IMG/VR virus record: IMGVR_UViG_3300030331_000836 | Span: 1 to 26,236 of that record | Source of the DNA: a virus | Reading direction: 5' to 3' (one strand) | Length of the DNA: 26,236 nt | Part shown: piece after piece, positions 1-26,236 of the stretch | How positions within the stretch are numbered: the first letter of the stretch is position 1 | Layout: every line of letters starts with the position of its first letter | Translations under genes and position numbers: made by a program | Notes under the pieces: generated by a model | Databases searched by the model: none | What the model saw: only the letters and a program-made list of their open reading frames with translations | What the model was told of the DNA's origin: nothing

Positions 1-300
1 CAACTGCGAGAACCAAGGGAGTCAATCCCAACCATACCGTGGGACGAAATGTTTTACAAAGACGCATACGACATTCCCGTAACCGAGGACTCTTTAAAAC
101 GGAAGTCCGACGCAATCCGATCAGCCTACAAAAGATATCTCGTAAAGGCGGAGAATCCGCCGCAAAGAGAGTTCTTTATCGGCAAGCAATACGTCGATCA
201 CGAATTGGTCGTGCGCGTATATTGCAAAAAAGGCCCGATGCGTGAAGATAACGAACCACCACAATCTGGCTGCACCGATAGTCAAGGCTTTGAGCCGTGA
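1..300 (+). CDS. 3' end of a conserved phage protein of unknown function (partial)
   Basis: The reading frame is open from the first base to the TGA at 298-300, so the gene probably begins outside the window. An internal ATG at 49 is possible, but the 16 codons before it (ending in IPTIPWDE) read naturally into the rest. About 99 residues are visible: a charged helical segment rich in Lys and Arg, then a short beta-like stretch (HELVVRVYCKKG) and a polar tail. I recognise no domain. The last 59 bases overlap the nuclease gene that follows in another frame, which suggests co-translation as part of the early/DNA-processing operon. Confidence 0.6.
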   Translation, partial: QLREPRESIPTIPWDEMFYKDAYDIPVTEDSLKRKSDAIRSAYKRYLVKAENPPQREFFIGKQYVDHELVVRVYCKKGPMREDNEPPQSGCTDSQGFEP

Positions 301-1102
301 TGACTACACCCGTGGGAATAGCCACAGATCCGTAACTCAACTGATTGACTCGCCTCGAGTACGCATACTCAGAGAAAGACACTGGGATTCTTTGGAAGAA
401 GACATCAGTGAAAAGCTCTGGAGTGTACTTGGCACTGCGGTACATAAGGTCTTTGAAGATCACTCCGGCGAGGATGTAATCAGTGAAGAGCGGCTGTTTG
501 TCGAGGTCGATGGTTGGGTGATATCGGGGGCAATAGATCTGCAAGATGCAGATGGCCCTAGTGATTACAAATGCACCTCTGTGTGGGCAGTGATCCACGA
601 AAAGGTTGAGTGGGAATATCAACTAAACGCCTACGCATGGTTGATGAGGCATGCCAAGGGTGTCCACTCCAAGAAGCTAAACATCATTGCGGTGATGCGG
701 GACTGGAACCGGCGGCAGGCGGAATCAAACAATGACTATCCCCAGGCACCCATCGCTACATTAGACATACCTATGTGGAGTGATGAGGAGCAAGACGCTT
801 TCATGGATCACAGGATAGGACTGCACAAAGATGCTGAGTTCCGCAACCTTGTGGACGAACGGCTTCCTGATTGCACCGACGAAGAGCGATGGACAAAGCC
901 ATCAACCTACGCAGTCAAGAAGGGAACGAACAAACGTGCGTTACGAGTGTTTGATTCGCAAGAGGAAGCACAGTCTTACATCGAACAAAACGAACTGGAT
1001 AACAAACATCATATCGAACACAGAATGGGCGAGTACACAAGGTGTGCCGGTAACTGGTGTCGAGTGGCAGAGTTCTGTGATCAGTGGAAGGAGATAGCAT
1101 GA
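242..1102 (+). CDS. PD-(D/E)XK superfamily nuclease (RecB/Cas4-like), probable phage recombination exonuclease
   Basis: A 286-aa protein with a GTG start at 242. The family's core motifs are visible in order: GTAVH with H68, the acidic strand GAID with D99, the D-Y-K triad at 108-110, and the helical Q-x3-Y motif at Q127-Y131. This is the metal-dependent fold of lambda exonuclease, RecB and Cas4. Near the C-terminus are C268, C273 and C279. Cas4 and AddB use C-terminal cysteines plus one N-terminal cysteine for an Fe-S cluster; no N-terminal cysteine is present here, so cluster binding is uncertain. The N-terminal pattern (TNHHNLAAPIVKAL, then SVTQLIDSPR) matches the usual start of related phage nucleases and supports the GTG. 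The likely job is end resection for annealing-type recombination with the downstream mediator and SSB-like protein. There is no cas1 or cas2 nearby. Confidence 0.85.
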   Translation: MKITNHHNLAAPIVKALSRDDYTRGNSHRSVTQLIDSPRVRILRERHWDSLEEDISEKLWSVLGTAVHKVFEDHSGEDVISEERLFVEVDGWVISGAIDLQDADGPSDYKCTSVWAVIHEKVEWEYQLNAYAWLMRHAKGVHSKKLNIIAVMRDWNRRQAESNNDYPQAPIATLDIPMWSDEEQDAFMDHRIGLHKDAEFRNLVDERLPDCTDEERWTKPSTYAVKKGTNKRALRVFDSQEEAQSYIEQNELDNKHHIEHRMGEYTRCAGNWCRVAEFCDQWKEIA

Positions 1103-1344: not shown

Positions 1345-1624
1345 AACCGACAAGACTGTCTTCGAGAAGATGGTGGGCATTTGGAGTATTACCCAAATAC
1401 CACAACTCAAGATGGTGCCAAACGCAGGCAAGGTCAAATTTACTTGGGCGAAAGGACTGATAGCCGAGATGGAGTTCCAGATGTTTGATTCTTTGGAACC
1501 GTTAGAGCTAGTGACCTTTATAGAATCACAGATAGAAAAGGAGCATGGGATAAATGCCAAGCAGTTCAGGTGTGATCTGTCTGGCTATCTAGTGCATCCG
1601 TTTTCAAGCCAAAGGAGTGGCTAA
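1337..1624 (+). CDS. Small conserved protein, function unknown
   Basis: A 95-aa protein read from ATG 1337, overlapping the previous gene by 8 bases. In-frame starts further upstream (1289, 1322) would lie deeper inside that gene. The ribosome site is weak (GGAAAA), as expected for coupled translation. The sequence has alternating strands (GKVKFTWAKGLIAEMEFQ) followed by a helix (PLELVTFIESQIEKEHG), giving a compact alpha/beta protein. I recognise no family. The stop overlaps the region of the next gene's ribosome site. Confidence 0.65.
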   Translation: MIETDKTVFEKMVGIWSITQIPQLKMVPNAGKVKFTWAKGLIAEMEFQMFDSLEPLELVTFIESQIEKEHGINAKQFRCDLSGYLVHPFSSQRSG

Positions 1625-1625
1625 C

Positions 1626-2303
1626 ATGGCGAAAAACAACGTACCTGAGAAGGTAATTGAAGTGCTAAAGGAGATAGGGCTGACCCCACAACAAGCGGGA
1701 TGGGATTGTCATGGCACCTATGTCCTGTTGCACAAAGCTCTGGAGAAGGTGGCTGCACACCGAAAGGTTGTATTTGATGCGCCACAAATACTGACCGCAA
1801 ACGTCTCAGCGAAAGAGGTGGTGGTGCTGGTGACAGGGCGCATGGGTGAGCTGTCCGAATGGAGCATCGGTGAGGCAGCGCCTTACAACAACAAGAACAG
1901 CTATCCATTTGCTATGGCAGAGAAGCGAGCCAAGGATCGAGTGATCCTAAAATTAGTCGGACTGCACGGTGATGTATATAGCGAGGACGAGGCTGATGAG
2001 TTTAAAGAAACGAGACCTGATCACGTCAACGCTCAACCACAAAGCGAACCAAGACCAGTAGCACCAGAACCTGCGCCACAAAAGATCGAAAGTTTGGATT
2101 GGACTGAGAAGCAAGCGAAGTTTTTCTGCAAGACCTGCATAAAAAATCTGAGAGACAATACAACTATCGATGGCTTGAAGAGCCATTGGCACAGTTTCCA
2201 AGCAGAAATAACCACAGTGCAGTCACACTATCCAGAAATGTTTGAAGAACTGAAGGCGGCGTTCACCGCCAAAAGAAAAGCCATAGAAGAAGGAGCAAAT
2301 TGA
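1626..2303 (+). CDS. Conserved phage protein, candidate single-strand annealing / recombination mediator
   Basis: A 225-aa protein from ATG 1626. An in-frame GTG at 1617 is rejected because it sits in the AAGGAG ribosome site (1612-1617). Residues 1-125 form a conserved alpha/beta domain: HKALEKVAAH helix, paired strands (VVFDAPQILT; KEVVVLVTGRMG), then EWSIGEAAPYNNKNSYPFA and the basic helix AEKRAKDRVILKL (98-110). A Pro/Glu linker (about 138-155) leads to a C-terminal helical region with C-x2-C (KFFCKTC). The layout, beta strands followed by a basic helix with a Lys-Arg-rich AKRA/AKDR motif, recalls Rad52- and Erf-like annealing proteins, and the position between an exonuclease and an SSB-like gene fits. 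I have not seen a diagnostic motif, so the annealase role is inference; close relatives are usually labelled hypothetical. Confidence 0.5.
   Translation: MAKNNVPEKVIEVLKEIGLTPQQAGWDCHGTYVLLHKALEKVAAHRKVVFDAPQILTANVSAKEVVVLVTGRMGELSEWSIGEAAPYNNKNSYPFAMAEKRAKDRVILKLVGLHGDVYSEDEADEFKETRPDHVNAQPQSEPRPVAPEPAPQKIESLDWTEKQAKFFCKTCIKNLRDNTTIDGLKSHWHSFQAEITTVQSHYPEMFEELKAAFTAKRKAIEEGAN
2291..2295 (+). promoter_or_regulatory. Ribosome binding site deciding the SSB-like start
   Basis: AGGAG lies seven bases before ATG 2303. It favours that codon over the TTG at 2300. Confidence 0.75.
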
Positions 2304-3135: not shown

Positions 3136-3308
3136 CGTGGATTATTCTATTGGCGGCAACGGTGCTGGCGCACTCGCACGTCCATCAGTGGCGTTTGGTT
3201 GACCAGTACACCAACGAAGATGGCGACACCGTTTGTTCTTGGTTATGCGACTACACTGGGCTTGAATACAGGATAGAGACAGTCGGCTGCTGGAATCCGA
3301 ACGATTAG
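3123..3308 (+). CDS. Small exported cysteine-containing protein, function unknown
   Basis: A 61-aa protein starting at ATG 3123 inside the zinc-ribbon gene's tail. Residues 1-17 are a short basic start plus a hydrophobic stretch (IVTWIILLAATVLA) ending AHS, which reads as a signal peptide or membrane anchor. The mature part has three cysteines (C38, C42, C56) and several aromatics, suggesting a small disulfide-bonded periplasmic domain. No family is recognised. The stop TAG at 3306-3308 overlaps the stop of the oppositely oriented giant gene. Possible roles such as superinfection exclusion or envelope modification are speculation. Confidence 0.55.
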   Translation: MRIVTWIILLAATVLAHSHVHQWRLVDQYTNEDGDTVCSWLCDYTGLEYRIETVGCWNPND

Positions 3309-6300
3309 TTGGCTATCGCTCTCAGCCTTGATCCAACATCTATCGTGGGAAGATCAGCTAATTTGTATAGCTCTGGCACAACTTCTAATACATAACGCTC
3401 TCGCAGATTAATCTCACGAATTAAGCGTTGTTTCTCTTCTGGCGTTCTGTCTTGTCGCATGACTGCCTCTCTCTCTTTTCTGAGAGCAGACAGATCTCTA
3501 CGCACACGGTCTACATCACGCTTCATACTGAGAAGATTCTCTCTACCAGCAGTGAATCGCTCCAGTTCTTCTAGTCTGCCAGCGTTGGCTAGGTCATTGT
3601 AACTATTGTAGAAACGGTTTATGTAGTTACTCATTTCGTAGAAGCGTTCTTTCTCTGCACCACCGAACTCGTTTGTGAAGAACCTTTTGATAACAGGATA
3701 TTCTCTGATCCTCATCGCAGGCATCACTGCTTGATTGTCGCCTTGCAGTCCCTTACTTCTCAAAACCAAGTCGCTCGTGTCTAACAGATAGGAACCTATC
3801 GTGCCGGTGTATCCTCGAATCAAATAGTCCGTCTTGATTGGACTCACGCCCAAAGTCTGGCCTATGAGCTTTGCTAACTCACTGGTGCCGATAGTTTCTT
3901 GAAACTCTTGTGCGTCTCCCTGATCAATAAATACAGGCGTTATAGGTCTGCCTCTGTATGCACTATAGTTTGCGAGCACCTCAATAGCAGGAGCTACCGC
4001 CTGCACCCCGAACGGGTTGATCTCTAAGGTGCTTACTATCCCTCTGCCTAGAGAAGCAGCGGTCTCTCTTGCTGTTGCATCATCTGTCGCGTATCTCAGT
4101 ATTCTTTCAGGAATAGTTTTGAATAACAGGCCAACCTCGAACGGTATTGGGTATCTAAACGCAACACCGTCAGGGCCTGGAACAATCCAGAAATTGTCTT
4201 TGATTTCTTCTGTTTGTTCTTTGTACTGCTCATCATCACTGACCATCATGTAGTACATGGCAGTCACTGCGGCTATCGTGGAGCCGCGCATAATAAAAGA
4301 GCGTGCCGCCTGACCGCGATCTAGATTCTTGTTGGCGTTTCTCTTGCCTCGAGCGGCATTCAACAGCAAGTCCAAACCCTGAAGCCTAGCATTCAAGAAA
4401 GGTATGGCTGTTGTTAACAGACGCATCACAGGGTGACTTCCACGGCGACCGAAGTTCATGACCTCTTTCGCTTGGAACACTGCTTCAGCTTCATCCCCTG
4501 TACGAGCGAGCACATCTTCATACACCGCCTTCCTAGTTGCGAAGTCTGATCTGGTGGTCACGTCACCCATAAAGTTCCACAACCCTATAAAAGGTTTGGC
4601 AACCCCAAGTGTGGTGTCTTGTACGAAACCGCGCTCTTTAAGAAGATTATTAAGATACTTGCCGATGTCTTTTGGATCTTTGGAGTAGTCATAACCACCG
4701 ACAACGCCGGTTCTTTCTAGATCCGTCATGTCCTCAGTGAAACCTTTCAAGGTGCTTGCCACTGGAACGAAGTTAGCGCCAGACGTTACATAGGCAGATA
4801 ACGTATCTCGCATCATGTTGGCTAGGATAAACCCTGGTTCTCTTGTGACCATCTCCCTTAATAGGTTTGCCGGTGCTCCAAGAACAGTCTCCAGTATGTC
4901 GAAACCGTTGCCTCCGGCGAGTGGCTGCAATGATTGATAGACAAGTGGGTCTTCTATCGTAAATTTACGATCTTTTCCGTTTACCCTGAAGCTGACCGTG
5001 GGTCTACCGTCTACAGCTTCCCCTTGGGGTATCTCGCTACTCATACCGTAACGAACCATGTTTCTAACAACACGCTGCTGGGCAACGTTCTTCATGCCCA
5101 TATCAATCGCGGCATTTAGATTCATAACAACAGCATCAAGCAACGGAACGTTAAGTTGTTTTTCGCTGCCTGTTATCGGCTTGAAGGTAGATACAGATGT
5201 GAGGTTGTTGAACATATTCGGTATGCTCGTTAAATCTTCACCCATAGCTTGTCTGTAGAACGGAACATAGTCTGACTTAGCGGCCCAGATCTCAGCCATT
5301 TCTTCTGTTAAAACACCAGTATCCCGCAAAAACTTAATCGTGTTTCTATTGTAGGACTGCCAAGCGTCATACCAGTCCTTGATGATTGAGTTTCCGTTTT
5401 CATCAAGATACTGCTCTGCATTCTCAATCACTAATCTGTGCTGCTCTGGCGTGCCTGGCGAGTCAATGCCTCTGGCCCTCAAACCTTGCGCTCTTTTAGC
5501 TATCGCATACGCCTGTGCGTCTTCCTCAAGAGAGCCATGTTCCTTGGTGAACAACATGCCCATGACATCTATCAAGCCATCAAACTTCACGGTCTCACCC
5601 GCTCTGTCAGAGTTCTCAGTAAACGTGTGCTCGAAATCTACGACTTTGGTCAGACCATTTTCGTATACAGGCACACCGTTTGCGATGGCTTGTGCAGCTA
5701 TCGCGTTCGATCTATCCGCTGCCATGAGCGCGGGTATCGCCGACGAACTAGCCAGCACGTCCCTATCAAATTTATTCTCATACGCCTCTATCTGTGCGTA
5801 CTGAAAGATAGCGCCCTGCTTTGCTCTGGTCAGGAGTTGATCTATCGGCCCTTGATCTAGGGCGTTTAGGTAAGTGTCGCCCGGAGTCTCATCCTCTGGG
5901 TTAGCAATGAGCATGTTATCCATAGCAGACTGCACATACTCTGGACGCTCTGGTGCATTTGCTCGAGAGAACATCGCTCTTTCTTCCGGCGGCAGCACTG
6001 CACCTCTTTCTGGGTCAGCGGCTACAGCTTGAGCGTATGGGTCTGCTGATGGATTGAACTTAGGGACAAAGCCGGTTGGTGCGTTCTCGGCAGTAGATAT
6101 GTTTTGCTCTACTACCTCTTTGACCTTGCCTTCTGGAATACGTTTAGATTCTAGCCTCGGCGCTGCTCGGCTAAACGCTGGGCCTTCTTCTTGGCGGTCA
6201 ACTGTTGTAGTCTCTGGACGAATAACCCCATCTTGCCTTCTGGCACTTGGCTGATCATCGTCGGCTCGCTTTCTGTCTGCGTCCCTGAGTGCTTTTTCAA

Positions 6301-9300
6301 CCCTTCCACGGGGTACTCCTTCTTTCTCAGCAAGTATCTCTGCTGCGTCAAGATAATCGTTGTCAGAGCCTCGACCGGGCTGAACCCCTAGTGCCCTGAA
6401 CAATTGTTTCTCAGGATACCACATCAGTGCCTGAAAGTCGGCGGTACTTATGTTGTAGTTTCTCTGCCTCAGTCTTTCCTTAGCCGCATCCACAACCTCA
6501 CGCATGTAAGCTCTCTCTACAACGCCCTTTGGCGTTGCCTGAAGCTGCGGTGCCATGTTCTTTACATAGGTTCCAGTCTTCTTGAAGATCTCTGGCTTGA
6601 CGTGATTTACGCCCTTTTCAGCTTTGTACTCCTTGTAGAACCTTTGGTATCGGCGCTCGACATCTCGTATAAACTCATCGAATAGCTGGGGATCTTGATA
6701 AACCTCAGTGCGTGTTTGATCGTTGCCCTTGAGAACTTCGTTGATCAGCTTACGAGGCAGTCCACCAGTCTTCTTTACCAGCGTCTTCAGTTCATTTCGA
6801 CGCTCTACCCTTGCCTCATCGCCCAAGCCATCTGTGAACGGCCTACCGATGGCTCTGTTCCACATACGCATCCACCAAATATCCATAGTCAACGGATCGT
6901 AGTTGCCTCGGATATTCTGATAAAAGCCTTGGCCTATCTTTGGCCCAAGGATGTAGCTGCCTTTGACAACCACATCAGCACCTTCTGCGCTGGGCACCTT
7001 GATAGCGTCAAATCCAACTTCAGCATTGAAGTCATCAGCGAAAGCAGAAAGCTCCCTGACTGTGAAGTCCTCATCTAAGAAGTCTCTAATCGCTTGGTTC
7101 TGACCGCTCTTGCTAAACTCATTGTGGAACTTGAACGCTTCCAACATGGCGGCGTTGCGCTCACCGCCTTTATTAAATTCTTTCGTGGTTTCTGGAAAGC
7201 GACCGTTCTTCATGTGATATCTAAAGATATCTGTCGCCATCTCGAAGTTATCCACAACCGCCTGTCCGTTTGATGTGACGGCAAGACCAAAATCAAACAC
7301 CGCCTCTGTATCAGGCGATTGCATAATCTGCGGCTCGACAAGTTGCATGACAGCCTTTGCTGCTTTTATCTTGCTGTCATACCAGCCAATAGCATTTGCA
7401 TCGTTCTCTAGGGCAACCAGAGCCTCTGTGGCGAGCATGTCTGACAATATGTCGATGTTCTCTGGCGTATAATCAAATGGCTCTGTGCGGCCTGTAGCGT
7501 TCTGCCAGCGGTCTTGTAAGAACTGTGCAGCCTCAACAAGCGTTCTCTTCTGCTGCGGTTTGTAGGTGTTGTCTTTCATCTGCTTCAACTCTTCCTGAGT
7601 CGGTAACAGATTCGTGTTAGTCATCCCTATTTGGGCTGCTTGACCCATAGGACTTAGAGGTGCAGTTCTAGAGAAAACAAAGTCTGCCATGCGAGGCTGA
7701 CCCAAGCGCCCCTCTTCCTCTGCTCCTGTCGTTGTTGAGGTGGATGTTCTGACGGTGCCTGTAGGAGCATAAGAAGCCTTACCGGCCTTACGCTCCGTTA
7801 GTTGTTCCGTCCTGACATCACGTGATCTGGCACCTATTCTGCCGGTGCTGATGTCCTGAATAATAGAATCGAATGATGTAAAGCCAGAGCCGTCCAAGGC
7901 GCTCTTTAGTTTCACCATGAACTGTCTGATTCTGTTTAGTAGTGCTCTTGGCTTTCCGGCGACAATCTTTGGGTTAGCTCTTTGGTCTCTTACAAGTTCA
8001 GCAACAGCCTCTTCATTCTGTTGAACAGGGTTCAGTTCCTTGTAGGTTGCTCTAGCCCAATCTAAATATGTTTGATTGCCAGACTTCTTGAGTTCCTTCG
8101 CTTTCTTGCTAAGTAGATTCCATTCTTTCACCTTGAAGAGATCCATCATCCTCATGGCGTGAACGCTTTCATGGTTCAGCGTACTGATGAGAGCCGCCTC
8201 GACTTGCTCTTCAGTCATTGACGGATCTGTTTTCACCGCGTCAACAGACAAGAAGATCCTGTTGAGATCTGGCGAAAAGTATCCTTGGCTATCTAGGCCA
8301 GCGGCTTTGCCCTCTGGATCGGCCTCCTCTAGGCGAACAAACGTGCGAGACCCTAGCTCACCACCAACAACATCTTCTCGAGCAACCTCTTCACCGGGCT
8401 GTCGCGGTCTGATGCCATAAACAACATTACCGTCAGCATCTCTTGATGATGATCGGAGAGCGTAGTCCACATTTACAGGAACATCCGAAAGTCCCAAGCC
8501 CTTCATCTCGCGCTCCATAGCTGCTCGGAACCGATCTAGTGCCGCTTCATCTACAGGGGTAGGAGAGGGCAGTAGTGCGACTGGTGCCGCCTGCTCAATG
8601 ACACCTTGGGCTTGAACGTCTGAGATAACCTGATTGGCTGAGTCAAGATCAGTGATACCCGACTCTTCAGCCACTGTCACTGCGCTTGCATTAGGATCTC
8701 TTTGAAGGGTTTCGACGGCTTTCTTGAACTGATAGCCAGTGTATGGCTTGAGCTTAAATACAGGCAGCTTGGTTGGAGAATCGAATCTTGGCAGAGAGCG
8801 AAGCTTTTGCGCGAATAGCTTGAACTCACCCTCCGTCATCTGACTGAGGTTTGTGTCTGGAGCAACCCCAGCAAAACGCTCAGCGAGATACTTCAACTCT
8901 GGGGAGTCTATTGGCGATGTAATGTTTTTAGCGTCTAGTACGTTTTGCAGAAACTGCCTAGAGACAAACTTATCTCTGTAAACGGATTCATCTACACGAC
9001 CGATACCAGTGTTTGCGTTGGCTTTGTCGGCAAATGCTTGAGCTTCGCCTGCATTTCTGCCGAACGGCACAATACGAGGCATGTTTTTCTTTGGCCTGCC
9101 GGTTTCTAGATAGGCTTGTTTTTCTTGGGGATTTAGCTTTCTGCCTCGAACAACTTCGCCTGCACTGCTGACAACAACATAGTTGGGCACTGTTGCATTA
9201 CGCTTGCGTCTGTCTTCTACACGATAGCTTTCTGTCTCTGGTAGACCATTAACGCGAGTGTCTGTCAGGTTGATTAGCTTGTCGCCTAAAACGCCCTTGG

Positions 9301-10960
9301 CTTCTTGCAACGTGAAGTTGTTTGAGGCGGCTTTTCCGTCTAGAAGTCGTTGACGGTTGATCTTCTGTGAAGCCGTCATTCTTGCTTCTTGACGCACCCC
9401 CGCACGAACATCTCGGATAACGTCTTCTAGCTTTTCGCCCTCGTAGAATCCTCTGTCAAATGTGGTTTCTGCGGCACTGTCTATAGCAGCGGATGTGAAG
9501 GTTTGTGCATCAGGATCATTTGCAGCAAAGTTATAGCGTTGAAGGGTTTTCTTCTGGTCATCAGAATACATTTCTGGCGAAGACTGAATGACTGCGTCAC
9601 CACCGTTGTAAACTGAGTCAACCTCCACTTGCTTATTGAGAGCAGACGCTAACGCCGCTGCGCGACCTTGGGTTTCTGATGGCTCTGCGTATGTGTAACC
9701 CTCAGAATCGACTACTTGATAACGCTTGACTCCGTCTTGCCCGACAGGCTCGTCTCGAACACTGAAAGAAGAGTTAGCTGATGGGAAATAAATGCCCATT
9801 AACTGCTTGATGCCTGAAGCAGTTTCATCAACAGGCGCTTGTTCGCCTATAGGCAACTGGCCTATACGCTCTCTTACAACACGAAACCTTTCTTCTTCAG
9901 CGGTGGGCGCATTTTCGCGCTCTTGTCTCAACGTCTCTTGGAATGCTTGATCTAGCTCAAGGTCTGCTGACAGAGCCTCTGATCTTGACTGTATGTTCTT
10001 TTCGTTTTGCTCTAGCTTGGCTTTTTCTTTTTCTAACTGGGCATCAAAAGACGCTTTGTTTCTGCGTCCTGCTATAGCATTTACTACCAAGTCTGCGCCA
10101 GCACCCACTGCACCGCCGATGGTTAAATCGTCGTACAAGTTGCCACCCAGCAACTCCAACTGCTCGTTGTAAACACCCTTCTCAATAGCGTTCTGGGCGA
10201 TAGTTGCGCTAACTTCTTGGATAGCCTCTAACGATCCGCTTCTCAAGGCAGACTTGAGTAGTTCCGTAGCACCAACAGGGAGCTTTTCCAGTGCGTCTGG
10301 GTTCAGGCGCTTGAGCAGTGTTGCTGGCAGTGCCAACTCGGACAAACCGACGAAGCCACCACTAACAATCGAGAGATCTTCTTGGTTTTCACTGACATCT
10401 ATACCGGCATCTCTTGCGGCCTGTATACGTTGAGCCTGATCACCAGCGCCAGCACCAGCGGCTAAGGTGCCACCAGCCACGGCTTCTGCCGCCCCCATAC
10501 CACCTAACGCGGCAACAGGTTTGCCTGCCAAACCAGCAAGTCTCAACGCTCCGGCAGGCGTAAAGAATGAAGCTAAAGAACCTACACCTTCTCCGAACTT
10601 TGTTAGCCAGGTATCTTGGTAGGCTTGATCAGCACCCATGTACTCATCGATTGCCTTTCTACCCTCGCGTGATGCAGCGACGAGAGCATTGTCATCACCA
10701 CTATCAATGACATCTTCCAGACCAACAACGTTTGTAGCTGCGTCAGCAAGCTCTGCTAAACCCTCGCCAGCAGACAAGAAGGTGTTTGCAAATCCTCGAG
10801 GTATGGCTTTGAGCGTTTCTCCTGCCTGACCGAGTGCAGTGCGCTCATCAGCAAACTGATCAATGCCGAGAACCTCATTAACCGCCCTCTGAATTACGTC
10901 ATCGTCAGTTCCATCAGGAAACTGTAATGTGCGCCCATCAGGAAGCTTTGCTCTGATCAT
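3305..10960 (-). CDS. Giant polyvalent internal virion protein with HExxH metallopeptidase motif and LPD38-like C-terminal half
   Basis: A 2551-aa protein, TAATG-coupled to the gene before it. Visible layout: an N-terminal motif found on many giant phage proteins (LPDGRTLQFPDGT, ending about 32); a Gly/Ala-rich helical hydrophobic region (about 50-300); coiled coil (about 300-370); a zincin-like domain with HESVH at 930-934 and a candidate third ligand in EEAVAE (983-988); a helical region (about 1100-1500) with conserved GFYQN...DPLTMDIWWMRMWNR near 1340-1365; and a C-terminal half (about 1664-2551) resembling large polyvalent protein associated domain 38, including PGFILANMMRDTLSAYVTS. FSR motifs at 1096, 1596 and 1664 lie in linkers. 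One hydrophobic segment is near 2224-2240, with a charged coiled coil at the end. By size and position it parallels T7 gp16-type proteins that are ejected with the DNA. The protease may process the virion protein or act in the host; both are inference. Confidence 0.8.
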   Translation of the reverse strand: MIRAKLPDGRTLQFPDGTDDDVIQRAVNEVLGIDQFADERTALGQAGETLKAIPRGFANTFLSAGEGLAELADAATNVVGLEDVIDSGDDNALVAASREGRKAIDEYMGADQAYQDTWLTKFGEGVGSLASFFTPAGALRLAGLAGKPVAALGGMGAAEAVAGGTLAAGAGAGDQAQRIQAARDAGIDVSENQEDLSIVSGGFVGLSELALPATLLKRLNPDALEKLPVGATELLKSALRSGSLEAIQEVSATIAQNAIEKGVYNEQLELLGGNLYDDLTIGGAVGAGADLVVNAIAGRRNKASFDAQLEKEKAKLEQNEKNIQSRSEALSADLELDQAFQETLRQERENAPTAEEERFRVVRERIGQLPIGEQAPVDETASGIKQLMGIYFPSANSSFSVRDEPVGQDGVKRYQVVDSEGYTYAEPSETQGRAAALASALNKQVEVDSVYNGGDAVIQSSPEMYSDDQKKTLQRYNFAANDPDAQTFTSAAIDSAAETTFDRGFYEGEKLEDVIRDVRAGVRQEARMTASQKINRQRLLDGKAASNNFTLQEAKGVLGDKLINLTDTRVNGLPETESYRVEDRRKRNATVPNYVVVSSAGEVVRGRKLNPQEKQAYLETGRPKKNMPRIVPFGRNAGEAQAFADKANANTGIGRVDESVYRDKFVSRQFLQNVLDAKNITSPIDSPELKYLAERFAGVAPDTNLSQMTEGEFKLFAQKLRSLPRFDSPTKLPVFKLKPYTGYQFKKAVETLQRDPNASAVTVAEESGITDLDSANQVISDVQAQGVIEQAAPVALLPSPTPVDEAALDRFRAAMEREMKGLGLSDVPVNVDYALRSSSRDADGNVVYGIRPRQPGEEVAREDVVGGELGSRTFVRLEEADPEGKAAGLDSQGYFSPDLNRIFLSVDAVKTDPSMTEEQVEAALISTLNHESVHAMRMMDLFKVKEWNLLSKKAKELKKSGNQTYLDWARATYKELNPVQQNEEAVAELVRDQRANPKIVAGKPRALLNRIRQFMVKLKSALDGSGFTSFDSIIQDISTGRIGARSRDVRTEQLTERKAGKASYAPTGTVRTSTSTTTGAEEEGRLGQPRMADFVFSRTAPLSPMGQAAQIGMTNTNLLPTQEELKQMKDNTYKPQQKRTLVEAAQFLQDRWQNATGRTEPFDYTPENIDILSDMLATEALVALENDANAIGWYDSKIKAAKAVMQLVEPQIMQSPDTEAVFDFGLAVTSNGQAVVDNFEMATDIFRYHMKNGRFPETTKEFNKGGERNAAMLEAFKFHNEFSKSGQNQAIRDFLDEDFTVRELSAFADDFNAEVGFDAIKVPSAEGADVVVKGSYILGPKIGQGFYQNIRGNYDPLTMDIWWMRMWNRAIGRPFTDGLGDEARVERRNELKTLVKKTGGLPRKLINEVLKGNDQTRTEVYQDPQLFDEFIRDVERRYQRFYKEYKAEKGVNHVKPEIFKKTGTYVKNMAPQLQATPKGVVERAYMREVVDAAKERLRQRNYNISTADFQALMWYPEKQLFRALGVQPGRGSDNDYLDAAEILAEKEGVPRGRVEKALRDADRKRADDDQPSARRQDGVIRPETTTVDRQEEGPAFSRAAPRLESKRIPEGKVKEVVEQNISTAENAPTGFVPKFNPSADPYAQAVAADPERGAVLPPEERAMFSRANAPERPEYVQSAMDNMLIANPEDETPGDTYLNALDQGPIDQLLTRAKQGAIFQYAQIEAYENKFDRDVLASSSAIPALMAADRSNAIAAQAIANGVPVYENGLTKVVDFEHTFTENSDRAGETVKFDGLIDVMGMLFTKEHGSLEEDAQAYAIAKRAQGLRARGIDSPGTPEQHRLVIENAEQYLDENGNSIIKDWYDAWQSYNRNTIKFLRDTGVLTEEMAEIWAAKSDYVPFYRQAMGEDLTSIPNMFNNLTSVSTFKPITGSEKQLNVPLLDAVVMNLNAAIDMGMKNVAQQRVVRNMVRYGMSSEIPQGEAVDGRPTVSFRVNGKDRKFTIEDPLVYQSLQPLAGGNGFDILETVLGAPANLLREMVTREPGFILANMMRDTLSAYVTSGANFVPVASTLKGFTEDMTDLERTGVVGGYDYSKDPKDIGKYLNNLLKERGFVQDTTLGVAKPFIGLWNFMGDVTTRSDFATRKAVYEDVLARTGDEAEAVFQAKEVMNFGRRGSHPVMRLLTTAIPFLNARLQGLDLLLNAARGKRNANKNLDRGQAARSFIMRGSTIAAVTAMYYMMVSDDEQYKEQTEEIKDNFWIVPGPDGVAFRYPIPFEVGLLFKTIPERILRYATDDATARETAASLGRGIVSTLEINPFGVQAVAPAIEVLANYSAYRGRPITPVFIDQGDAQEFQETIGTSELAKLIGQTLGVSPIKTDYLIRGYTGTIGSYLLDTSDLVLRSKGLQGDNQAVMPAMRIREYPVIKRFFTNEFGGAEKERFYEMSNYINRFYNSYNDLANAGRLEELERFTAGRENLLSMKRDVDRVRRDLSALRKEREAVMRQDRTPEEKQRLIREINLRERYVLEVVPELYKLADLPTIDVGSRLRAIAN

Positions 10961-22542: not shown

Positions 22543-22743
22543 AACGGTTATATTTACTCGTTGTATTGATGCTAATTGCTGCGCCTCGACCCTATTACCA
22601 TCTTTGGTGTAAATAGTCGGTATGATGGTTTCTACCGCCTCTCGCACGGTCTCGCCTTCAGCGCCCGTTCTTAACCGCTCTTGTTTTTCTACCGCTACTT
22701 GCTTCCAACTAATTCGAGCAGTATCACTAATGCTTACTTCCAT
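22540..22743 (-). CDS. Small conserved protein (67 aa), function unknown
   Basis: Read from ATG 22743 rather than the TTG at 22758, because GAGGGA lies just upstream at suitable spacing. The protein (MEVSISDTARISWKQVAVEK onward) has a helix followed by strands (IIPTIYTKDGNRVEAQQLAS). It overlaps the oxygenase gene by 17 bases. The sequence is soluble and mixed-charge, with no known motif. Confidence 0.65.
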   Translation of the reverse strand: MEVSISDTARISWKQVAVEKQERLRTGAEGETVREAVETIIPTIYTKDGNRVEAQQLASIQRVNITV

Positions 22744-23437
22744 CTTGCTGTCCCTCAACAGGAAAACAATTGATATTGGCGGCTACTGTCCTTCGCTCGC
22801 CTTCCCCTTGGAACGGATAGACCATGTGCTGCATCCACGATGGGAACATATATAAGCGCCCCACCTGCGGCCTCACTACGACGTTCTGCGTAGGTTTAAG
22901 CCGCTCTCTGTCCCATGTGCTGCTTTGCCCGTAGTTAAAGCACAAACAGCCGTCACTTTCGCCACTGGCGTTATACAAGCCGTATTCTTGCGATCCCGGT
23001 CTTGGCCCCTGCACGATTTGAGGCGGCACCCTCGTCCAAGTCGTACAGCTAATACCCATCACGGTTTTAGTGCCATGATCGTGTATCGGGTTGTAATCAC
23101 CCTCGTAGCTATGCACTGACCATAGCTCATCCATTTCGACGTTTCTGTTACCGTCCAGCACCTGACCAGACTGGGCCATGAACTGGTTAATATACGTCAC
23201 GCCTATCTCGCACAAGAACCTAGAAAACGGTGCCAGCCTTGGATCTTGGTGATCCATAACAAGCTGCTCACCTGTCTTAATCTGACCTACGAGCGTATGC
23301 GCTGCGCTGACCTTATCGTTTTGTGTAACTAACTCATCAAGATAGTCGTTACACGATTCAACAAACTCTGTCGGGATGTCCAACTCCATCAGGAACACTG
23401 ACGGGAGCGGGTGCATCTGATACTGAATCTCAGCCAT
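22727..23437 (-). CDS. Putative 2OG-Fe(II) oxygenase
   Basis: A 236-aa protein with the double-stranded beta-helix signature of the 2-oxoglutarate/iron dioxygenases found in marine phages (2OG-FeII_Oxy_5-like). Candidate iron ligands are H119 and H121 in NPIHDHG (an H-x-H form in place of H-x-D) and H204 in FPSWMQHMVYPF. R215 or R216 in GERRTVAANI is the likely 2-oxoglutarate-binding arginine. The upstream WSVHSYEGDYNPIHDHG and downstream VRPQVGRLYMFPS blocks match the family. Such enzymes hydroxylate proteins or small molecules. Here the gene lies two small genes after the tail fibre, so modification of a virion protein is possible, though the substrate is unknown. It overlaps both neighbours (8 and 17 bases). 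Confidence 0.82.
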   Translation of the reverse strand: MAEIQYQMHPLPSVFLMELDIPTEFVESCNDYLDELVTQNDKVSAAHTLVGQIKTGEQLVMDHQDPRLAPFSRFLCEIGVTYINQFMAQSGQVLDGNRNVEMDELWSVHSYEGDYNPIHDHGTKTVMGISCTTWTRVPPQIVQGPRPGSQEYGLYNASGESDGCLCFNYGQSSTWDRERLKPTQNVVVRPQVGRLYMFPSWMQHMVYPFQGEGERRTVAANINCFPVEGQQDGSKH

Positions 23438-23894: not shown

Positions 23895-23901
23895 CCTCCT
23901 A
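23895..23901 (-). promoter_or_regulatory. Stop codon fused to a strong ribosome binding site (fibre / 86-aa junction)
   Basis: Read on the minus strand the bases are TAGGAGG: the fibre stop TAG shares its G with AGGAGG, five bases before the next ATG. Terminating ribosomes should re-initiate efficiently. It also fixes the start of the 86-aa gene. Confidence 0.8.
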
Positions 23902-26236
23902 TGATTCTAGCGCGGCAACACGCGCTGTAAGTGCGGTAATAATTGCGTCTTGGTCTTGAATGGCTTTAACAAGAATTGGTATGAACTTCTCGTACTGAAG
24001 ACCATATTGTTTACCGTCTTCACTCAGCGATACGGTGAGATTCTTCTTAGCAGCAGCGGTATACCCAGCAGCTTCTTCAAGATCACGCACAGCTTGTGCT
24101 TTGAAGCCAATATCCATCCAATCTTCTTTGTGGGTTCCGTCTGGTGTTTGTGCGTTCAGATCGTAATCATCAGCGTACTTATCGCCGTATTTAGAACGCT
24201 TGTCCCAGTAATAAGTGACAGGCTCTAAAGCCTTTACAAAGTCTAAGCCAAGGTCTAAGTCAACAAAGTCAGTTTTATCGCGCTGATCCGAAGCGACTGT
24301 TAGAGCTACTTGGCAGTTAAAAGACGAAATGTCGTCATCGCCTAAACCAATTTTATTACTACCTGTCGTTTGATTACCGCCGGGACTCCCTGTTCTTAAA
24401 GCGTCGTGACCTAATGCAAGATTATTAGAGCCACTTGTTACTCCAAATCCTGCGGCAAAGCCAAGCGCCGTGTTGTCAGATCCAGTAGCCTCAAATAAAG
24501 CGAGTGATCCAACTGCTGTGTTTACGCCTCCAGAGGCACCACTAAGAGCGGCGTATCCAACGGCAACATTACTACTTGTTGTGGTGGTTGCATCCCCTGC
24601 AAGGCCACCGATGAAGACGTTCTGTTCCCCTGTGGTGACGTTCGCGCCTGCTAAATAGCCAACTGCTACATTGTAAACGTCTGTAGGGCTGGTAAAGTTT
24701 TGATCAAACAAAGCACCATGGCCTACAGCAACAGACCGACCACCCCGTGTTTCGGCGCTTAGAGTTTGACTGCCTAGTGCGGTGTTAAAAGTTCCGTCGG
24801 TAATAGCATCCCCTGATTCATTACCAACTAATATGTTATGTTGACCCGTGGTGACTGACTTGCCTGCTTGATAGCCAACTGCTACGTTGAAAGTGTTAGT
24901 AGCCGTTGTGAAGTTTTGTTGTTCTAAGGCTGCGTAACCAATTGCAACGGATCGACTTCCTAAAGTATCAGAGTCTAATGCCCCATAACCTAATGCCGTA
25001 TTAAAGTCAGCGTCGGTTAAACCGTCACCAGCAAAAGCGCCGACAAGGGTATTGCGGATTCCCGTGGTGACTGAAAGACCTGCATCTGCGCCAACCGCCG
25101 TATTGAAAGAATCTGTAGCAGTAGTAAAGTTTTGAGCTTTAAGAGCACTATGGCCCACAGCTACATTATGCGACCCAAGGGTATCCCCTGAAAGACTCTC
25201 ATGCCCCAACGCCGTGTTGCTTGATCCTGTGGTCAAAGCATCACCTGAAAGACCGCCGACTACCACATTTGCAAAACCCGTGGTAATTACCGACCCCGCT
25301 TGAGATCCTATTGCTACATTGAATGAGTTTGTCGCGGTGGTAAAGTTTTGGGTCGACAAGGCCAAAAAGCCAAGGGCGGTGTTTTGACTGCCTAAGGTAT
25401 CAGACGATAAAGCACCGTAGCCTAATGCTGTATTGAAGTCAGCATCTGTCAAAGCATCACCTGCAAGACCGCCAACTAATGTGTTCTGGATTCCCGTAGT
25501 GACTGACCCACCTGCGTTTGCTCCAACTGCCGTGTTGTAAGCATTTGTGGCGGTTGTGAAGTTTTGAGCAAAAAGTGCGGCATAACCTAAAGCAACACTA
25601 TTTTGTCCTTTTGTATCGCCGCTTAAAGCTGCAAAACCGACGGATACATTACGAATCCCAGTTGTTAAAGCATCACCAGCATTTGCTCCAATGAACGTAT
25701 TCTCGGTTCCCGTAGTAACATCTTTGCCTGCTTGGTAGCCAACTGCTACGTTTAAACTGTTAGTAGCCGTTGTAAAGTTTTGTGATTCTAAAGCTGAGTA
25801 ACCTATTGCAACAGATTGACTTCCTAATGTGTCGGCTCCGAGTGCTGCCACACCTACAGCCACGTTATAGTCCGCGTCAGTCAGGGCATCACCCGCAAGA
25901 CCTCCGATGATCGTGTTCTCGACTCCCGTGGTGATTTCTCTACCGGCAGCCCGCCCAACAGCCGTGTTATAAACATCTGTAGCTGTTCCTAGTACTTGAT
26001 TGGATAATGCAAGTTGACCGACAGCAACAGAATAACTTCCGTGAGTATCAGTTCTTAAAGCACCTTTACCTACTGCAACATTAGAACTACCAACAGTAAG
26101 TGAATCCCCTGCTTGTCCACCGATCAAAGTGTTCTGAATGCCTGTTGTGACTGCCGCCCCTGCGCTAGAACCAACCGCTACGTTATGATTTGCAGCATCA
26201 TTGTTTTGTGCGGTGAGTGCGTTATATCCGATTGCA
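23899..26236 (-). CDS. Tail fibre / trimeric adhesin-like protein with Peptidase S74 chaperone domain (5' end outside window)
   Basis: The frame is open to the right edge, so at least 778 residues are seen and the start lies outside. From the edge to about 24350 the protein is an uninterrupted array of N-x-A-[VI]-G-x-x-A units of 17 or 21 residues, the pattern of YadA/trimeric-autotransporter head repeats that fold as left-handed beta-rolls in trimers. The last ~130 residues are the Peptidase S74 (intramolecular chaperone of endosialidase) domain: SDQRDK, LGLDFVKALEPVTYYW, GFKAQAVRDL, QYEKFIPILVKAIQDQ, and a final coiled coil. In this family the domain trimerises the fibre and then cuts itself off, with the serine of the SD-x-R motif (codon 24289-24291) as nucleophile. 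A receptor-binding fibre is the likely role. Confidence 0.88.
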   Translation of the reverse strand, partial: AIGYNALTAQNNDAANHNVAVGSSAGAAVTTGIQNTLIGGQAGDSLTVGSSNVAVGKGALRTDTHGSYSVAVGQLALSNQVLGTATDVYNTAVGRAAGREITTGVENTIIGGLAGDALTDADYNVAVGVAALGADTLGSQSVAIGYSALESQNFTTATNSLNVAVGYQAGKDVTTGTENTFIGANAGDALTTGIRNVSVGFAALSGDTKGQNSVALGYAALFAQNFTTATNAYNTAVGANAGGSVTTGIQNTLVGGLAGDALTDADFNTALGYGALSSDTLGSQNTALGFLALSTQNFTTATNSFNVAIGSQAGSVITTGFANVVVGGLSGDALTTGSSNTALGHESLSGDTLGSHNVAVGHSALKAQNFTTATDSFNTAVGADAGLSVTTGIRNTLVGAFAGDGLTDADFNTALGYGALDSDTLGSRSVAIGYAALEQQNFTTATNTFNVAVGYQAGKSVTTGQHNILVGNESGDAITDGTFNTALGSQTLSAETRGGRSVAVGHGALFDQNFTSPTDVYNVAVGYLAGANVTTGEQNVFIGGLAGDATTTTSSNVAVGYAALSGASGGVNTAVGSLALFEATGSDNTALGFAAGFGVTSGSNNLALGHDALRTGSPGGNQTTGSNKIGLGDDDISSFNCQVALTVASDQRDKTDFVDLDLGLDFVKALEPVTYYWDKRSKYGDKYADDYDLNAQTPDGTHKEDWMDIGFKAQAVRDLEEAAGYTAAAKKNLTVSLSEDGKQYGLQYEKFIPILVKAIQDQDAIITALTARVAALES
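24571..26082 (-). repeat. Seven tandem 216-bp super-repeats in the fibre gene
   Basis: Seven consecutive 72-residue cycles without any length change (7 x 216 = 1512 bases). Each cycle holds four units of 17, 21, 17 and 17 residues, recognisable by DTxGS, QNFTTATN, VTTG and AGDALT. Copies differ in DNA sequence, so this is an old protein-level repeat rather than a recent DNA duplication. A partial further cycle runs to the window edge, and degenerate shorter units follow on the low-coordinate side. Confidence 0.9.

Follow-up and report, generated by a model that had tools for sequence, protein, structure and literature searches.

Four-rung cassettes in the fibre shafts of uncultured phages and their probable recombination between genomes

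The tail fibre or spike encoded by an uncultured, probably marine phage is most plausibly built on a shaft of exchangeable four-rung cassettes that are recombined between phages, a reading to which we assign a probability of about 0.77. The window analysed here is the whole 26,236-base stretch of an IMG/VR virus record, and its fibre gene was compared with those of related loci, about 180 related fibre genes in all. Across this family, a conserved four-rung cycle, insertions and deletions of whole cycles, in-phase sharing of cassettes between distant phages, and the absence of a duplication signal are directly observed.

The fibre gene and its seven-cycle array

The fibre ORF occupies the last 2.3 kb of the window, where the contig end cuts its 5′ end. 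Its main parts, and the sites referred to below, are as follows.

23899..26235, minus strand: fibre/tailspike gene, an ORF of 778 codons with its 5′ end beyond the contig
26113..26157, minus strand: A/B rung junction (A10-B7) of cycle 1, recurring every 216 nt, where the ends of shared segments cluster
25969..26031, minus strand: long rung D of cycle 1, 21 residues
Beginning at 25815, 25599, 25383, 25167, 24951 and 24735, minus strand: long rung D of the other six cycles
24673..26184, minus strand: seven exact 72-residue cycles of rungs A17-B17-C17-D21 (residues 18-521)
24373..24672, minus strand: C-terminal rungs outside the cycle (17, 17, 16, 16, 17 and so on)
24067..24291, minus strand: Peptidase_S74 intramolecular chaperone domain (Pfam, E = 4.9e-7), starting with SDQRDK

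The original prediction, made from the sequence alone, had described the protein as a fibre, and this identity is upheld both by the PHROG tail spike profile phrog_4636 (E = 6e-106), which matches it in seven stretches covering the array and the C-terminus, and by the C-terminal S74 chaperone, whose score of 30.4 bits lies above the Pfam cut-off of 22. The start of the S74 domain, SDQRDK, is located at residue 649 of the ORF, and the motif SDxRxK is found in 65 of the 68 relatives with a complete 3′ end; this position is that of the known Ser-Lys self-cleavage motif of the S74 family, and SDQRDK is predicted to serve as such. At the opposite end, the window opens with a rung, AIGYNALTAQNNDAANH, that corresponds to the first long rung of the complete relatives L002 and L004, SVAVGYNALTAQNN[DE]AANY, so that by this comparison the ORF lacks about 230 residues, comprising the N-terminal domain and the first rungs.

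The rungs are designated A, B, C and D, with D being the 21-residue rung that carries QNFTTAT, the long-rung consensus over 337 cycles of the family. Residues 18-521 consist of seven cycles of 72 residues, each composed of 17+17+17+21 residues (216 nt) with no insertion or deletion, exactly as had been predicted, and the unit order of 17, 21, 17 and 17 given in that prediction describes the same cycle in another phase. The predicted start of the array at 24571, on the other hand, falls beyond cycle 7 among irregular rungs, as regularity extends to 24673. At the protein level, self-identity of the array reaches 57% at a lag of 72 residues versus 7-8% at lags of 71 and 73. The cycles are nevertheless old copies, as indicated by a DNA identity among them of 51-71% and by the failure of Tandem Repeats Finder to report the array. 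An alternation of TDAD and TTG endings, which had been taken as a hint of a 144-residue higher order, is present in the window (GDGDGDG by one residue) but represents only a weak tendency across 108 genes, in which 55% of neighbouring B-rung endings differ versus 50% when shuffled (12 of 2000 shuffles as high). Because this alternation is weak and cycles two apart are no more alike over their full length than adjacent ones (identity 0.586 at lag 2 versus 0.584 at lag 1, 47 genes), a fixed 144-residue unit is unsupported and was rejected.

Two other genes on the minus strand of the window deserve mention. A 2OG-Fe(II) oxygenase gene (phrog_81, 22727-23437) is situated a short way downstream of the fibre gene, from which a small ORF separates it, and genes of this kind are listed in metaviromic islands by Mizuno et al. 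2014. A 2551-residue protein with an LPD38 domain (E = 3e-36) is encoded at 3305-10960; it is probably an ejected or internal component of the virion, and a very large one.

Distribution and predicted structure of the cycle

A first scan gave 80 related loci, and the set of non-redundant genes numbered 76, including that of the window, and two further scans added 106 non-redundant genes, none of which had been used before; several arrays that recurred identically in different assemblies were dropped as duplicates. Cycle order, whose loss in relatives had been named in advance as evidence against the original prediction, is maintained: of the spacings between long rungs, 413 of 461 are four in the first set (about 89%, compared with 11% when rungs are shuffled), as are 531 of 604 in the further arrays. 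Cycle number, which was to be compared among related phages, ranges from none (L071 and L076) to more than ten, and 16 of the 106 further genes are devoid of any long rung. The L071 and L076 arrays comprise 44-57 uniform 17-residue rungs, whereas the longest related array found, L112, is a single gene of 2901 residues with 116 rungs. In 5′-complete genes, the first long rung has 19 residues in 70 genes and 21 in 60, and arrays of this one type follow at least six distinct N-terminal sequences.

All arrays with the four-rung cycle come from metagenome contigs. The rung itself is shared with known phage fibres, as 17-residue NTA[VI]G rungs form long fibre or spike arrays in the Pelagibacter phages HTVC111P and HTVC112P, Methylophilales phage Venkman (gp55), Roseobacter phage CRP-1, and Prochlorococcus phage P-SSM2 (phrog_4636), and an S74-type C-terminus lies within the alignments of several of them, as in the window. 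Unlike in the window, however, their parsed records show near-uniform rungs, without a long rung at each fourth place. A regular four-rung cycle was absent from all ten phage records parsed (HTVC111P, HTVC112P, Venkman, CRP-1, CRP-7, CRP-831, P-SSM2, SPO1, AG-345-E02, and LR756500), most of which have near-uniform 17-residue rungs, and the rung is therefore common, whereas the cycle is a specialised form. With two window cycles as the query, no phage record matched at 60% identity or more, and megablast of window positions 1-24500 against the phage collection retrieved no DNA relatives. A search of species genomes for prophages returned three matches, one of them 43% identical to the window array and carried on a 14-kb contig of a Flavobacteriaceae metagenome-assembled genome (L239), possibly a prophage or a phage contig.

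Structural predictions were obtained with AlphaFold2 as monomers for four cycles (pLDDT 65.6) and for the complete L018 protein (pLDDT 68.5). In both models, one short strand occupies positions 2-4 of nearly every rung, with a spacing of 17 or 21 residues. In the L018 model, D gains no strand from its additional residues, and confidence falls at steps of about 72 residues. The periodic loop that had been proposed at every fourth rung may therefore exist, since it fits the L018 model weakly, although both models are monomeric and of moderate confidence. Solved relatives were also sought by sequence, with none convincing, and Foldseek searches with the monomer models (pLDDT 65-69) gave no PDB match at E ≤ 0.001. 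BFVD, in contrast, gave similar proteins from phages and giant viruses (best E = 1e-19), all of them predicted and none solved; the best viral match of the L018 model was an FhaB-like adhesion protein of the giant Bodo saltans virus (E = 1e-19), and rung arrays of this type may thus occur beyond phages. The units had also been assigned to the YadA head, whose fold is a trimeric left-handed beta-roll. Pfam YadA_head (PF05658) finds no match in the window, even with the E-value limit relaxed to 10; of 57 four-cycle fragments it hits 36 weakly (best 5e-6), alongside spurious families of somewhat weaker strength. Together with the lack of a confident PDB fold, this leaves YadA-head membership unsupported and the likeness a resemblance.

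Cassette sharing between phages

The comparison of 170 non-redundant genes, with shared segments defined by a length of at least 140 nt and an identity of at least 92%, revealed 84 segments lying wholly inside two arrays, 80 of which occupy different ordinal rungs in the two genes. The phase of the cycle is the same in both genes for all 105 segments with a placeable start. Segment lengths peak at 160-200 nt, which is a cassette minus its conserved ends, and at 220-240 nt, which is a whole cassette. In five phage pairs, the stabilisation protein is 44-74% identical while the shared cassettes are 92-99% identical. The 72-residue four-rung cycle is accordingly the unit of exchange between phages. 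The window itself shares two segments with the phage contig L067.

24632..25038, minus strand: 407 nt, about two cycles (window rungs 22-29), matching L067 rungs 6-13 at 98.3% identity
25286..25473, minus strand: 188 nt, about one cycle, matching L067 at 98.4% identity

The closest relative found, the sister contig L254, has a stabilisation protein 99% identical to that of the window, and its DNA is 94.2% identical over 2334 bp and 81.6% identical over the S74 end and the next genes. Its array, however, shows only the generic similarity of 64-71% to that of the window and is thus a different array.

The ends of shared segments cluster in the A10-B7 stretch at the A/B junction, which contains 27 of 35 starts and 20 of 35 ends in the first set, 35 of 57 starts and 35 of 59 ends in the held-out comparison, and 53 of 82 starts and 47 of 83 ends in all data. 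A random-end null that allows overshoot into conserved stretches places 23% of starts and 19% of ends there. The corresponding expectations are 42% and 27% under a 12-nt identity null (all data, p = 3e-5 and 7e-9) and 53% and 38% under a 15-nt homology null (p = 0.019 and 0.0004), with p-values that assume independence of events, an assumption that holds only approximately. Much of the clustering therefore follows from short local homology, yet it exceeds both nulls. Codon sameness at the junction is ordinary, and no codon-level conservation marking a special site was found there; a nucleotide-level recombination site at the junction was rejected on this ground.

These observations bear on a possibility that we take seriously without favouring it, namely that structure alone, such as the twist of the shaft, preserves the four-rung pattern, that the A/B ends reflect short homology plus tolerance of folding, and that the shuffling is non-adaptive. 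Consistent with it, the 15-nt null reproduces much of the clustering, the junction codons are not unusually conserved, and arrays without any long rung exist (L071 and L076); yet segment ends exceed even the 15-nt null, and the QNFTTAT rung, with about equal homology, is used less for ends.

Cycle number changes by whole cycles. The genes of L009 and L018, which come from different metagenomes, show 98.9% identity for 832 nt as far as rung 14 and 100% for the 1092 nt that follow; one is longer by exactly 216 nt, located at the A/B junction, which bears out the proposal that whole cycles are gained or lost. Similarly, L006 and L021 are 99.9% identical over 2066 nt, then carry different cycles, and return to 99.8% identity with a shift of exactly four cycles, while the identity between L019 and L023 alternates along the array between about 100% and about 70%. 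Whole-cycle steps such as that between L009 and L018 would also be expected if cycle number changed by tandem duplication and slippage within one gene, as the original prediction implied, with similarity between phages reflecting descent only. This account is improbable and largely refuted: the extra L009 cycle is not a copy of its neighbours, cycle-to-cycle identity does not fall with distance (0.58 at lags 1-4), and cassettes are common to phages just 44-74% identical elsewhere. Moreover, near-identical cassette pairs (at least 92% identity in the core) are no commoner within genes than between them, with 1 in 3144 within-gene pairs compared with 0.88 expected from the between-gene rate, at which a random pair is near-identical with a probability of about 1 in 3,600; this null is strong for older events and weaker for the newest, because assemblers could hide recent exact duplicates. 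The original interpretation thus stands as regards the fibre, the kept order and the whole-cycle gain and loss, whereas the cycles move between phages instead of being duplicated in place.

Finally, assembly chimeras between strains are a very improbable source of the mosaic pattern: although every array is metagenomic and repeats are hard to assemble, just 2 of the 115 gene pairs with shared segments derive from a single assembly (one pair includes the window, whose assembly is not named), several arrays are identical across different assemblies, and exact matches of at least 25 nt cover less than 0.1% of codons between arrays, so that joining errors would need homology that is absent.

A possible mechanism and its implications

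The 5′ part of the window encodes a candidate recombination module.

242..1102, plus strand: exonuclease (phrog_2139, E = 4e-53)
1617..2303, plus strand: candidate annealing protein; 120 residues align at 49% identity with a "recombination protein" from Pseudanabaena phage Pam5
2300..2635, plus strand: possible single-strand DNA-binding protein (weak; phrog_7364, E = 0.001)

Judged by sequence similarity, these three products would make up a plausible exchange machinery. Among 10 related records, each of which may be a fragment, one yielded the exonuclease. The Pam5-related protein, of 228 residues, belongs to no Pfam or PHROG family and possibly represents an undescribed group of annealing proteins.

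In the mechanism that we propose, the array would form the shaft of the tail fibre or spike as a beta-solenoid in which each turn is one rung of 17 residues, enlarged at every fourth turn, and the S74 chaperone closing the shaft, by analogy with its family, would probably trimerise the protein and then cleave itself off. During coinfection, the arrays of two phages would pair in the same rung phase by homologous recombination, and crossovers would occur mainly near the A/B junction, where segment ends are observed to concentrate, transferring B-C-D-A cassettes, singly or a few together, to any site in the recipient, in keeping with the displaced segments. Unequal pairing would change fibre length in steps of 216 nt with the reading frame kept open, and the phage's own exonuclease and annealing-type protein may drive the process. 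The probable benefit would be a rapid change of fibre length and surface in the face of changing hosts.

Recombination within a fibre gene has a precedent in the T4 gp37 adhesin, in which small conserved "His boxes" reportedly guide recombination or duplication (Tetart et al., 1996). Duplication there reportedly takes place within the tip, whereas in the present family shaft cassettes are exchanged between phages and a duplication signal is absent. The Bartonella adhesin BadA is likewise reported to be trimeric and repetitive, with domain arrays that recombination reshuffles (PMC8859334); it differs in being a bacterial autotransporter shuffled in a genomic island with pseudogenes, and in having no four-rung cassette. 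Among phages, mosaic receptor-binding proteins are well known (PMC10684548), pelagiphage fibres contain repeats, one with a YadA domain (PMC3909814), and YadA domains occur in pelagimyophages (PMC7029224). Domain mosaicism (PMC10684548) and metaviromic islands (PMC3909814) involve the exchange of unlike domains or whole regions, in contrast to the homologous, in-register 216-nt unit of the window family. No description of in-register four-rung cassette exchange between phages was found in the open-licence literature searched, which is not proof of novelty.

Tail fibres determine which bacteria a phage attaches to. It is tempting, if still rather speculative, to picture the phage community as pooling a large number of interchangeable shaft cassettes, with each phage carrying a combinatorial string for recognition or escape and the cycle being kept because it is the exchange unit. 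In-register exchange of a fixed-length homologous unit inside one gene, between distant phages, could speed the evolution of fibre length and surface beyond that of the rest of the genome. The 216-nt cassette offers a concrete, countable unit for measuring recombination among wild phages, and the cassette array provides a test of whether the composition of the shaft, and not the tip alone, affects host recognition.
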